Shown: positions 10,998-13,883 of the stretch, one piece after another
Numbering within the stretch: the stretch's first letter is position 1
Layout of the letters: the number at the start of each line of letters is the position of its first letter
Source: a virus
Reading direction: 5' to 3' (one strand)
Length of the DNA: 35,410 nt
Virus record (IMG/VR): IMGVR_UViG_3300043409_000119
Coordinates: 1-35,410 of that record
The notes under the pieces: generated by a model
Seen by the model: only the letters and a program-made list of their open reading frames with translations
Told to the model about the DNA's origin: nothing
Database searches by the model: none
Made by a program: the position numbers and the translations under genes

Positions 10998-11201
10998 TTA
11001 GATGGTTGCCAAGCGAACTGCGCGTTCTGTGGCTTCAGTCCAATTTGCAACCCACTTGAAAGACAAAGTGCCCTCAATTTGATAAGCAGTAAATTCACCT
11101 TGATAACCTATTGCAAAGGTAAAAGTGCGTGCTTTGTTGTCTCTGGTAATCTTGACCCATTTGCCGTTTGTGCGAATGGTTTTCTCTGTAAAGCGTGTCA
11201 T
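10998..11201 (-). CDS. First gene of leftward early operon, unknown
   Basis: A 67-residue basic protein starting MTRFTEKTIRTNGKWVKI after AAGGAAAA. It predicts beta strands (KARTFTFAIGYQGEFTAY, then TLSFKWVANW) with a final helix. It is the promoter-proximal gene, so it is probably made very early. No family was recognised. It could be a nucleic-acid or host-protein binding early protein. Confidence 0.65.
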   Translation of the reverse strand: MTRFTEKTIRTNGKWVKITRDNKARTFTFAIGYQGEFTAYQIEGTLSFKWVANWTEATERAVRLATI

Positions 11202-11234
11202 GTTTTTCCTTAATTACCCACTTACGTTTTGTTA

Positions 11235-11300
11235 TGGGCTGAGATGGATTGTAAAGGTTTCTGAACATTACTCAATAGATTTTTATAGGTGTTTACCCTA
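11235..11300 (-). promoter_or_regulatory. Duplicated regulatory module, leftward copy
   Basis: Read on the minus strand, this stretch begins TAGGGTAAACACCTA (imperfect dyad TAGG-N7-CCTA). It continues through AATGTTCAGAAACC and TACAATC to TCAGCCCA, and lies just ahead of the leftward operon. The same elements in the same order occur at 13537-13592 on the plus strand, with 15 of 15 bases identical in the first block and about 27 of 35 in the second. TACAAT is a possible -10, with TTGAGT 16 bases upstream in this copy. Confidence 0.75.
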
Positions 11301-11310
11301 AAAACAACAA
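11282..11310 (-). promoter_or_regulatory. Leftward early promoter candidate
   Basis: On the minus strand, TTGTTG (11305-11310) and TATAAA (11282-11287) are separated by exactly 17 bases. The -35 box overlaps half of the palindrome at 11306-11320, so a protein bound there would block this promoter. It should drive the operon starting at 11201. The alternative -10, TACAAT, lies about 30 bases downstream. Confidence 0.6.
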
Positions 11311-11320
11311 ATATTTTGTT
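11306..11320. promoter_or_regulatory. Palindromic operator candidate
   Basis: AACAAATATTTTGTT is a perfect inverted repeat (6 bases, 3-base spacer, 6 bases). It lies between the divergent early genes, overlaps the leftward -35 and sits just before the rightward -10. The Cro-like protein encoded 16 bases downstream is the obvious candidate to bind it. Confidence 0.65.
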
Positions 11321-11329
11321 TGTTATACT
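11321..11329 (+). promoter_or_regulatory. Rightward early promoter (extended -10)
   Basis: TGTTATACT is an extended -10 element (TGn followed by TATACT). No convincing -35 exists 16-18 bases upstream, where the palindromic operator lies instead. Only 6 bases separate it from the ATG at 11336, so the transcript would start at or very close to the start codon and the Cro-like message could be leaderless. Confidence 0.55.
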
Positions 11330-11335
11330 GTTTAG

Positions 11336-11488
11336 ATGGATAAACAAACCGCTATCAAACTTGCAGGCTCACAGAGTGCGCTTGCCCGTATCTTTGGGAT
11401 TGAAAGGTCTGCTGTTCACCAGTGGAAAAAGATTCCATTACTCCGTATTTACCAACTAAAAGAACTCAAGCCAGAATGGTTTAAATGA
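11336..11488 (+). CDS. Cro-like repressor (50 residues)
   Basis: The protein begins MDKQTAIKLAGSQSALARIF, continues GIERSAVHQWKK and ends in a short helix (LKPEWFK). AIKLAGSQSALARIFGI followed by SAVHQW is the helix-turn-helix pattern of lambda/P22-type Cro proteins. These bind palindromic operators as dimers and switch early promoters. It is only a single DNA-binding domain, shorter than lambda Cro (66 residues). Its stop overlaps the next start by ATGA. A matching CI-type repressor was not found, so this may be a solitary early-gene repressor rather than half of a lysogeny switch. Confidence 0.8.
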   Translation: MDKQTAIKLAGSQSALARIFGIERSAVHQWKKIPLLRIYQLKELKPEWFK

Positions 11489-11847
11489 CACAAGAAGCAA
11501 TAATTAAAGCCCTCCAGAATGGCCCTCTGACCTCTGCTGAAGTCTGTGACCTGACAGGTATGCCCAAGTCCTCTGTCCTGTCCACAGCTAAGAAACTGAG
11601 ATACAAAGGTGAACTCACCACAGAGGAAGTCAAGGTAGGTAGATTCTGGTTGGTCAAGTACACCTTGGCTGACCACATGATTGAGAAAAAGCCTAATGAA
11701 GATCGCTGCTTGCTAAACCCTTTTGACTTGAGAAACGCCAAGGGGATATTTAGCAAATCAGAGTACGCTGTGATGAACGCACAAGCTAAGAGATTGCTTG
11801 GCAGACCAAGACCAGTTAAAGAAATTACCAACAATCAATTTATTTGA
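11485..11847 (+). CDS. Winged-helix transcription regulator-like protein
   Basis: A 120-residue protein. Residues 1-60 form a winged helix: AIIKALQNGPLTSAEVCDLT, then GMPKSSVLSTAKKLRYKGEL as recognition helix, and a wing (EEVKVGRFWLVKYTL). The C-terminal half is helical (FSKSEYAVMNAQAKRLLGRP). It is translationally coupled to the Cro-like gene, so the two regulators should be made together. Replication-related proteins with N-terminal winged helices also occur at this position in phages, so a replication accessory role is an alternative. Confidence 0.72.
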   Translation: MTQEAIIKALQNGPLTSAEVCDLTGMPKSSVLSTAKKLRYKGELTTEEVKVGRFWLVKYTLADHMIEKKPNEDRCLLNPFDLRNAKGIFSKSEYAVMNAQAKRLLGRPRPVKEITNNQFI

Positions 11848-11853
11848 TACAAT
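11825..11853 (+). promoter_or_regulatory. Promoter candidate before replication gene
   Basis: TTACCA (11825-11830) and TACAAT (11848-11853) are spaced by 17 bases. They lie at the end of the winged-helix gene and about 100 bases before the DUF1376 gene. The -35 is a 4 of 6 match, so the call is moderate. Confidence 0.45.
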
Positions 11854-11870
11854 GTTTTGAAACACGGCTA

Positions 11871-11935
11871 GGTTTGGGGTTGCTCCCAGACCGAAAAGAG
11901 TTCCTCCCTCTCCTGCCGCAGTTTCTTTTAGGGAG
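11871..11935 (+). promoter_or_regulatory. Structured leader with two hairpins
   Basis: The gap 11848-11955 holds two inverted repeats. The first is a 9-base-pair stem, GGTTTGGGG with TCCCAGACC (two wobble pairs), around the loop TTGC (11871-11892). The second is CTCCCT (11904-11909) with AGGGAG (11930-11935). Neither is followed by a T run, so they are not simple terminators. The ribosome site of the next gene (AAGGCGAGAG) lies just after them. They may control translation of the replication protein or be part of an origin. Confidence 0.55.
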
Positions 11936-11955
11936 TGGTTTAAAAGGCGAGAGAT

Positions 11956-12732
11956 ATGCACTACTACAAGAGAAATCTTGGCGACTATGCCAAGAAAGCT
12001 GGTCGTTTGACAATGCTCCAACACGGAGCGTACACGCTTCTTATTGATTCGTGCTACGACAGAGAATTATTCCCAACACTTGAGCAAGCACTTGAATGGA
12101 CTTGGGCATCGACTGAGGCTGAAGTTGAAGCTGTTAAGTTTGTTTTAAGCAGGTTCTTTGTGCTTGATAAAGAGGGCTGCTATGTGCAAGACAGGATACT
12201 TGAGGAGTTGTTGCATTACCATAAAAATGCAGACACAAACAAACGAATCGCTGATGAAAGAGAAGCAAAGCGTAGAGAGAAACGCACGAACCGTGAACAA
12301 GTCGTTAACGAAGCTCCACCTAACCAAGAACCACTAACCATTAACCATAAACCAAAGAGAGAGAACGCAACTGTCGTTGCTTGCCCTCTTGATGTTCGTG
12401 ATCAAGTTTGGAGCGATTGGGTTGCTTTACGGAAAAGTAAAAAAGCACCAATTACTGCAACAGTTGTTGAAGGTGCGAGAAAAGAGGCTTTCAAACTTAA
12501 TTGGCCTTTAGATAAATTTTTGGTTGAGTGGTGTACTCGTGGAAGCCAAGGTTTAAAAGCAGAGTGGATTACTTCTGCTAAACAAAACCCTGCTGACAAC
12601 ATCAGGCTCACAGTTCCTGCGTCAAATGAGCCTGACCCTGCTCTGGAAAAGATTAAAGCTGATGACAAAAAAGCAGTTCCTATTCCGCTAGAAGTTTTAG
12701 CAAAGATGGCAGAGTTGCGGAGAAAAGCATGA
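11956..12732 (+). CDS. DUF1376-type phage replication protein
   Basis: A 258-residue protein. Residues 1-85 are a DUF1376 domain (MHYYKRNLGDYAKKAGRLTM, then HGAYTLLIDSCYDRE and a WTWAS segment). Residues 85-130 are a charged, disordered linker. Residues 140-200 resemble a DnaT/primosomal-type C-terminal domain (VWSDWVALRKSKKAPIT and FLVEWCTRGSQGLKAEW). Proteins of this architecture take the place of lambda O/P in many phages and are thought to bind the origin and recruit host helicase and primase. Since no polymerase is encoded, this is the best candidate initiator. AAGGCGAGAG precedes the start. Confidence 0.85.
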   Translation: MHYYKRNLGDYAKKAGRLTMLQHGAYTLLIDSCYDRELFPTLEQALEWTWASTEAEVEAVKFVLSRFFVLDKEGCYVQDRILEELLHYHKNADTNKRIADEREAKRREKRTNREQVVNEAPPNQEPLTINHKPKRENATVVACPLDVRDQVWSDWVALRKSKKAPITATVVEGARKEAFKLNWPLDKFLVEWCTRGSQGLKAEWITSAKQNPADNIRLTVPASNEPDPALEKIKADDKKAVPIPLEVLAKMAELRRKA

Positions 12733-12750
12733 ACTTTGAATGGCCCATAA

Positions 12751-12966
12751 ATGACTCCAGCAGAATTAGAACACTTCAAGGATTGCGAAGCGAAGGAATG
12801 GATTCGCAGATTCAACAAAAAGAAGTCGATGATTGGCTCAAGCAAAGCGTTGCTCTGGTGGCAGGGAGTGTGCGCGGACTTGGTACGAATCAGAGGCGAA
12901 TCCGCTACTTTGGATTTGAGAAACCGCATGACGAGGTTACGAAATGAGACGAGCAGCAAGAGTTGA
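12751..12966 (+). CDS. Small helical protein of the replication cluster
   Basis: A 71-residue protein starting MTPAELEHFKDCEAKEWIRR and containing SKALLWWQGVCADLVRIRG. The pattern of a short acidic helix, KDCEAKEWI, a tryptophan-rich middle and a basic helical C-terminus matches small phage proteins that usually sit beside replication genes (DUF7696-like, from memory). A competing frame (12729-12947) starts closer to the upstream stop but its product is unlike known proteins. This frame overlaps the next gene by 23 bases. The ribosome site is weak, so translation probably depends on coupling. Confidence 0.7.
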   Translation: MTPAELEHFKDCEAKEWIRRFNKKKSMIGSSKALLWWQGVCADLVRIRGESATLDLRNRMTRLRNETSSKS

Positions 12967-13210
12967 TGCAACACAAGAGGCCATTGTCAGCGCACTAAGG
13001 GCGGCAGGGGCGTATGTATGGGTCATTGGTCTGCCTGTTGACCTTTTAGTTGGTTACAAGAACCACACCTTTCTCGTGGAGGTTAAATCAGGGCCTAGCA
13101 AGCGTTTAACCAAGCTACAAGCCGACTTTTTTGAGAATTGGTCTGGAAGTACCTTGGCAAGAATAGATTGCCCAGAAGCGGCTCTACGAATGATCGGAGT
13201 AGTGAAATGA
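12944..13210 (+). CDS. VRR-NUC/PD-(D/E)xK-like small nuclease
   Basis: An 88-residue protein starting MRRAARVDATQEAIVSALRA. After an initial helix come GLPVDLLVGYKNHTFLVEVK and SGPSKRLTKLQADFFENW. The Asp of PVDLLV, the Glu-x-Lys of VEVK and the Gln of LQADFF match the catalytic core of VRR-NUC and related Holliday-junction-type nucleases, which act on branched or flap DNA. Its compact size is typical of phage versions. It sits beside replication genes and overlaps the next gene by ATGA, consistent with a role in replication or recombination intermediates. Confidence 0.82.
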   Translation: MRRAARVDATQEAIVSALRAAGAYVWVIGLPVDLLVGYKNHTFLVEVKSGPSKRLTKLQADFFENWSGSTLARIDCPEAALRMIGVVK

Positions 13211-13539
13211 AAGCCCCTTACAAAGCCATTGAGTTTATTTTGGAACAAGCCCCTCGTTTTGCCGAGGCAAAGGCACAGCGTGTGTACATTGAAAACTTCT
13301 TGCGTACAAAGAAGGCTTTGCTTATGAAAGAGGCATTGACCAAAGGCATAGATTCTGGCGTAGCACAGGAAAGAGAAGCCTATGCACACCCAGAGTACCA
13401 AGAACTACTACGAGGCTTACAAGCGGCTACCGAGCGTGAGGAGGGTCTTAAATGGAAACTCATTGCTGCACAAATGAAATCAGACATATGGCGATCAGAG
13501 CAAGCAAGTGAGCGTCTTGGTATAAAAACTACAGAATAG
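13207..13539 (+). CDS. Conserved-type helical phage protein
   Basis: A 110-residue all-helical protein starting MKAPYKAIEFILEQAPRFAE, then AKAQRVYIENFLRTKKALLM and a long helix (LKWKLIAAQMKSDIWRSEQA). I recognise the pattern from many phages where it stays unnamed, usually next to replication or recombination genes. The start ATG overlaps the nuclease stop. Its TAG stop is part of the duplicated regulatory module at 13537. The function is unknown. Confidence 0.75.
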   Translation: MKAPYKAIEFILEQAPRFAEAKAQRVYIENFLRTKKALLMKEALTKGIDSGVAQEREAYAHPEYQELLRGLQAATEREEGLKWKLIAAQMKSDIWRSEQASERLGIKTTE

Positions 13540-13592
13540 GGTAAACACCTAGATAATAATGTTTAGGAATCTATACAATCGTATTCAGCCCA
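13537..13592 (+). promoter_or_regulatory. Duplicated regulatory module, rightward copy
   Basis: TAGGGTAAACACCTA, then AATGTTTAGGAATC, TACAATC and TCAGCCCA repeat the order found on the other strand at 11235-11300, but with 10 fewer bases between the first two blocks. It precedes the operon beginning at 13626. TACAAT (13574-13579) is a possible -10, and no good -35 is present, so the upstream block may bind an activator or repressor. Confidence 0.72.
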
Positions 13593-13625
13593 AGCAATTC
13601 GCAAGGGTACTTTTAAGGATTAATA

Positions 13626-13883
13626 ATGAAATACGAATTTGACACAACTGTTGGTGAAGGCTCTGTAATCGTTACTGTTGTCATGGAGTACGAGCAAGAC
13701 GAGGAAGGCACTTATAACGAGAACATCGAGGAAGTCTGGTTTGAGGGTCGCAATGTCATGGGCATCTTTACTGTTGAGCAATATAAAGATTTAGAGATCG
13801 AGGGTGCTATGCGTCTTGCCAAGCACCTTTTAGACGAGGCAGATCACTCAGCTTCTGTTGACTACGACATGAGAGCAATCTAA
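13626..13883 (+). CDS. Acidic small protein, first gene of second early unit
   Basis: An 85-residue acidic protein starting MKYEFDTTVGEGSVIVTVVM, followed by EYEQDEEGTYNENIEEVWFE and a helical C-terminus. Its many Glu/Asp residues recall small phage proteins that mimic DNA or bind host enzymes, but that is speculation. It follows AAGGA and the duplicated regulatory module. The next gene overlaps by one base (TAATG). Confidence 0.68.
   Translation: MKYEFDTTVGEGSVIVTVVMEYEQDEEGTYNENIEEVWFEGRNVMGIFTVEQYKDLEIEGAMRLAKHLLDEADHSASVDYDMRAI

Follow-up and report, generated by a model that had tools for sequence, protein, structure and literature searches.

The recurrence of one set of short blocks, in the same order, ahead of two units read in opposite directions raises the question of what kind of signal a phage has placed twice in its genome and which protein might read it. 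The DNA concerned, called the window in its full length, is a contig of viral origin that comprises 35,410 bases and belongs to a phage described as freshwater. The original prediction interpreted the blocks as a multi-part regulatory module, an interpretation that stands for the upstream site and fails for the later blocks as separate operators, as TACAAT is a −10 hexamer and TCAGCCCA belongs to the leader RNA. Read from the sequence, the observation is composed of three parts, namely a putative protein-binding site upstream (TAGGGTAAACACCTA), a sigma-70 promoter core (AATGTT..TACAATC) and the 5′ arm of a leader hairpin (TCAGCCCA).

The 15-base TAGGGTAAACACCTA, hereafter the element, occurs at 11286-11300 (−) and at 13537-13551 (+) with all 15 positions identical, as had been predicted, and no further copy with zero to two mismatches was found in the window. 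The predicted TAGG-N7-CCTA dyad is present in it. A 35-base block starting with AATGTT follows in both copies and is identical in 27 of 35 positions without gaps, in agreement with the earlier estimate, while the inner spacing of 16 bases in copy A and 6 bases in copy B gives exactly the 10-base difference that had been noted. As chance alone would give approximately 1.5 repeated 15-mers in 35 kb when both strands are counted, an identical 15-mer by itself is unremarkable; for the 15-mer combined with the 27/35 block, the chance expectation is approximately 1e-8. The features of the two copies and their surroundings are the following.

10998-11201 (−): first open reading frame of the leftward unit, 67 aa, without family match
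11207-11211 (−): Shine-Dalgarno-like sequence AAGGA after hairpin A
11216-11239 (−): predicted leader hairpin A, GCCCAU..GUGGGU, −7.4 kcal/mol, z −2.3
11248-11253 (−): −10 hexamer TACAAT of promoter A, spacer 16, predicted +1 near 11241-11240
11270-11275 (−): −35 hexamer TTGAGT of promoter A, 10 bases after element A
11286-11300 (−): element A, TAGGGTAAACACCTA, proposed activator site, centre at about −52 of promoter A
11336-11488 (+): Cro-like protein (P22_Cro / YdaS), rival candidate for a phage-encoded binder
13537-13551 (+): element B, TAGGGTAAACACCTA, centre at about −42 of promoter B
13550-13555 (+): −35 hexamer TAGATA of promoter B, overlapping element B by two bases
13574-13579 (+): −10 hexamer TACAAT of promoter B, spacer 18, predicted +1 near 13586-13587
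13588-13608 (+): predicted leader hairpin B, GCCC..GGGU, −7.6 kcal/mol, z −1.6
13615-13619 (+): Shine-Dalgarno sequence AAGGA after hairpin B
13626-13883 (+): first open reading frame of the rightward unit behind promoter B, 85 aa, without family match

A promoter scan identified TTGAGT-N16-TACAAT at 11275-11248 (−) and TAGATA-N18-TACAAT at 13550-13579 (+); the AATGTT block thus corresponds to the spacer of the promoter and the TACAATC block to its −10 hexamer. The −35 hexamer of promoter B reads TAGACA in three relatives (L089, L092 and L098). The leftward unit continues to genes for an ERF-like annealing protein, ssb, ORF 9078 and a MazG-like protein, and between the copies a Cro-like protein, a winged-helix-like protein and a DUF1376 primosomal protein are encoded, a gene content (recombination, Cro-like and others) from which both units are presumably early. 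The closest deposited phages share 68-78% identity in patches of the region only. Located between the winged-helix and primosomal genes, positions 11861-11937 (+) give a sub-threshold match to the Rfam family int-alpA (28.2 bits with a gathering threshold of 35.8, E 0.004). Furthermore, the first three bases of element B (13537-13539) constitute the stop codon of the open reading frame 13207-13539.

Does the arrangement recur, and at which distances? Among 80 relatives collected via the primosomal protein, TAGG-N7-CCTA is found at both the A and the B position in L003, L014, L032 and L046 and, with one mismatch allowed, in more relatives (L047, L034), such that the paired arrangement, whose search in relatives had been proposed as a check, is recovered. 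The distance from element to −10 hexamer is 22-24, 32-33 or 42-44 bases in all but one of 31 rows of element-bearing promoters, two of these rows being the window's own copies listed twice. On a larger scale, a pattern search of IMG/VR for TAGGGWAARNMCCTA-N{0,30}-TTGACA gave at least 120 loci, and dereplication at 64% identity over 50 bases, after which some shared ancestry remains, kept 81 promoters. The gap between element and TTGACA is 0-1, 10-12 or 20-23 bases in 77 of these 81 dereplicated cases among the matches listed (Rayleigh R 0.85 at 10.5 bp, with 0 of 20000 uniform draws equally periodic), and −10-like hexamers peak 16-18 bases after TTGACA. An independent scan with TATAAT required and the −35 region left free has its best period at 10.45 bp, again with 0 of 20000 draws as periodic, and many of the element promoters selected in this way possess poor −35 hexamers. 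The earlier proposal of a regulator bound on one face of the helix gains support from these steps of approximately 10.5 bases across many phages.

The controls point in the same direction. The reversed element gave 78 matches in the whole IMG/VR collection without 10.5-bp periodicity, its sole clear excess, at gaps 0-2, deriving partly from divergent promoters that share one site, and an element with mutated core gave four matches in the whole collection versus at least 120 for the true element. The element is near-palindromic, yet occurs in a single orientation at the one- and two-turn positions, and an A-rich stretch with the consensus GAAAATAATT comes after it. Individual phage records carry one to six sites, one-mismatch matches included, and usually one or two. 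In L083, L087, L097 and L131, CCTACA or CCACA repeats (TGCCTACA, GTCCACA) are located just upstream of the element.

The third part belongs to the transcript. Transcription is predicted to start at the beginning of TCAGCCCA, which pairs with a GGGT located downstream, giving stem-loops of the form GCCCA..UGGGU (A) and GCCC..GGGU (B) with the ribosome-binding site directly after. Its earlier assignment to a DNA regulatory module has to be replaced by that of a leader RNA hairpin, which compensatory changes support: among relatives the fourth stem pair varies between C-G, G-C and A-U and an inner stem pair changes from G-C to A-U, with the fold kept in each case. The pattern of hairpin plus AGGA was found at 39 distinct places in the loci, 5 of these 39 being out-of-register readings, and at none in shuffled loci. 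An element precedes 20 of these places, at distances of 35-37, 45-47 or 57-59 bases, which reproduces the quantisation described above. As the leader is found with and without the element, it is a separate module, with a role probably in mRNA stability or translation. A search of Rfam with the leader hairpins gave no family, and 5′-terminal hairpins across unrelated phages (14 of 52 at p<=0.05) show a tendency only.

As to what binds upstream, we consider it probable that the element is the site of a host-encoded activator that touches RNA polymerase on sigma-70 promoters and that is used by many phages. Bound to the 15-base dyad TAGGGWAARNMCCTA, upstream of the −35 hexamer and zero, one or two helical turns away from it, such an activator would share one face of the DNA with RNA polymerase and would recruit or stabilise the polymerase on the sigma-70 promoter. 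The transcript would then open with the short stem-loop followed by the ribosome-binding site, each copy thus representing a compact expression cassette; in the window, A would have the one-turn (about −52) and B the zero-turn geometry (about −42). Equally, class I and class II activator-dependent sigma-70 promoters of the CRP type possess a single dyad upstream of the −35 hexamer at whole-turn positions, which agrees with a site found at whole-turn steps upstream of a −35 and −10 pair spaced 16-18 bases apart. The element differs from CRP-type promoters in its sequence, in its centres at approximately −43, −54 and −65 and in its spread over many phages.

Occurrence in bacterial promoters is the observation that points to the host. 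In a genus sampled via a Limnohabitans-labelled MAG, the element or a slightly changed copy precedes boxC (benzoate) in 30 of the 30 best-matching genomes, at a score of at least 13/15 in 28 of the 30 versus 2 of 300 shuffled upstream regions. It stands 21 bases before a TTGnnn-N17-TAAACT-like promoter, which is the two-turn position, and just upstream of TGCA-type BoxR sites. At the family level, TAGGGTAAAYACYTA has 19 matches in 151 genomes versus 0 for the reversed-pattern control. Elsewhere in Burkholderiales, the site is found in the vicinity of catabolic genes. In genome G540, four exact sites are located near putA and near genes for a dicarboxylate-type transporter, an acetyl-CoA hydrolase and a glutamate-type ABC transporter, while a site with one mismatch precedes cstA, host gene names being our reading of the translations. 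All 11 exact or one-mismatch sites in this genome are on the minus strand of their contig. Two genomes of the sampled genus (L318 and L338, near position 1501) also have the element or a near copy between what appear to be crtF and bchC, genes of photosynthesis. A scan of host genomes with TTGAC required remained at chance level, such that the case for host use is carried chiefly by the box promoters, together with a few other loci; the fair test in the host is the bare element and not the element plus TTGAC.

Isolated phages carry the element as well. Limnohabitans phage DC31 has an intergenic copy that agrees with the extended element in all 25 bases, and Xylophilus phage Lumi has a one-mismatch copy close to each end of its genome, at the 21-base position; both phages have hosts in the Comamonadaceae. 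Promoters are not mentioned in the description of DC31 (PMC12195039). Together with the other element-bearing phages, this suggests that the window phage may infect Comamonadaceae or relatives.

Not all observations fit a host activator equally well. A simple symmetric dimer does not predict the fixed orientation that the near-palindrome has at one and two turns, a polymerase-contacting repressor or a DNA-bending protein could need phasing too, and some conserved host copies lack an obvious promoter, such as five of the family-level TAGGGTAAAYACYTA matches, which coincide with the end of leuA at its stop codon. In five Burkholderiales genomes (L384, L387, L388, L396 and L399) the leuA stop codon forms the start of the element, as does the stop codon at element B.

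An unlikely explanation, although the foremost of the alternatives, is that the element is the operator of a phage regulator, above all of the Cro-like protein encoded at 11336, that represses or activates the early promoters as in lambdoid phages. Like lambdoid OL/OR with Cro/CI, the same site stands before two early promoters, here about 2.25 kb apart, and element A adjoins the Cro-like gene in the control region. Of the 80 primosomal-gene relatives, 53 encode a Cro-like protein, and in many of these the element occupies the same place; YdaS/Cro proteins also occur in some unrelated element phages. In contrast to OL/OR, the element lies upstream of the promoter and not within it, and it is found also in Cro-less phages and in host promoters. 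A convincing Cro/YdaS match is present in only 7 of 22 near-full element-bearing records and none in 11 of the 22, 13 of the 120 loci listed encode a Cro-like protein in the vicinity of the element, and the host boxC promoters conserve the same site. Moreover, a different dyad, AACAAATATTTTGTT at 11306-11320, lies just upstream of the Cro-like gene and may serve as a Cro operator separate from the TAGG element. Other gene families do not take its place: none is common to all 20 near-full element records, the widest, which looks like a tail fibre, reaching 10 of 20, DUF1376 9 of 20 and the 9078 family 7 of 20, nor was a gene common to all element-carrying loci found. Without a universal family and with a convincing Cro-like protein in only 7 of 22 records, a common phage-encoded binder is therefore unlikely; the Cro-like, winged-helix and 9078 products put forward originally as its candidates are missing from many site-bearing phages, whereas the site is conserved in host promoters.

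A somewhat less probable alternative is a host repressor or silencer that would hold the polymerase from upstream, phages using the element to delay or gate early transcription. Phasing would equally be required of a repressor that contacts polymerase, and at zero turns the site adjoins the −35 hexamer or overlaps with it; from the one- and two-turn positions, on the other hand, the promoter is not blocked. BoxR operators (TGCA-N6-TGCA; PMC6449761) are already present between the boxC element and its promoter core, and the poor −35 hexamers of many TATAAT-selected element promoters are as in activated promoters. The site upstream at three whole-turn distances, these weak −35 hexamers and the position of BoxR are the reasons for preferring activation over repression. 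The least probable account invokes a DNA-bending or architectural host protein in place of a classical activator, phasing then reflecting DNA that loops back onto polymerase, and accommodates the orientation dependence and the A-rich GAAAATAATT right after the element, but seems improbable for a strict 15-base dyad more sequence-specific than typical architectural sites and a zero-turn class that leaves little room for a bend.

Which described factor might then be the host activator? The ACTU motif of CrbR/ErdR, known from acetate-utilisation genes, is an inverted repeat that spans −52 to −36 and directly precedes the RpoD promoter (PMC5715377). The zero-turn element has a similar geometry, and one G540 site precedes acetyl-CoA hydrolase; as the factor itself CrbR/ErdR was rejected, as ACTU matches such as CTAGACTTACGTCCAAT (PMC5715377) differ from TAGGG-N5-CCCTA. 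The BoxR operator motif ATGCACTATAGTGCAT (PMC6449761) shares the boxC promoter with the element, which is not itself a BoxR operator, as it lacks TGCA-N6-TGCA and the TGCA sites are separate, between element and promoter core. In the literature library covered, searches on the exact 15-mers and the consensus, and in general on host factors at phage early promoters, gave nothing relevant. The operator of KorC on plasmid RK2, bound by the plasmid repressor, has TAGGG/CCCTA half-sites over a length of 17 bases; its half-sites are similar and it is two bases longer than the element.

Should A and B share one host activator, the leftward recombination and the rightward units would be switched on together. 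As a tentative extension, which we regard as a serious possibility rather than a probable one, an undescribed global activator of carbon and energy metabolism in Burkholderiales would recognise TAGGGWAARNMCCTA, and many unrelated freshwater phages would independently have taken up its site. If true, phage early transcription would be tied to the nutritional state of the host. The element would open early transcription in freshwater phages, abundant and uncultured, to study from the sequence, the 15-base motif would suggest their hosts (Comamonadaceae and relatives) and it would point to an unnamed host regulator, retrievable with a single labelled DNA fragment. Equally, it would show how two early units of a phage can be coupled to a single host signal via interchangeable whole-turn spacings.
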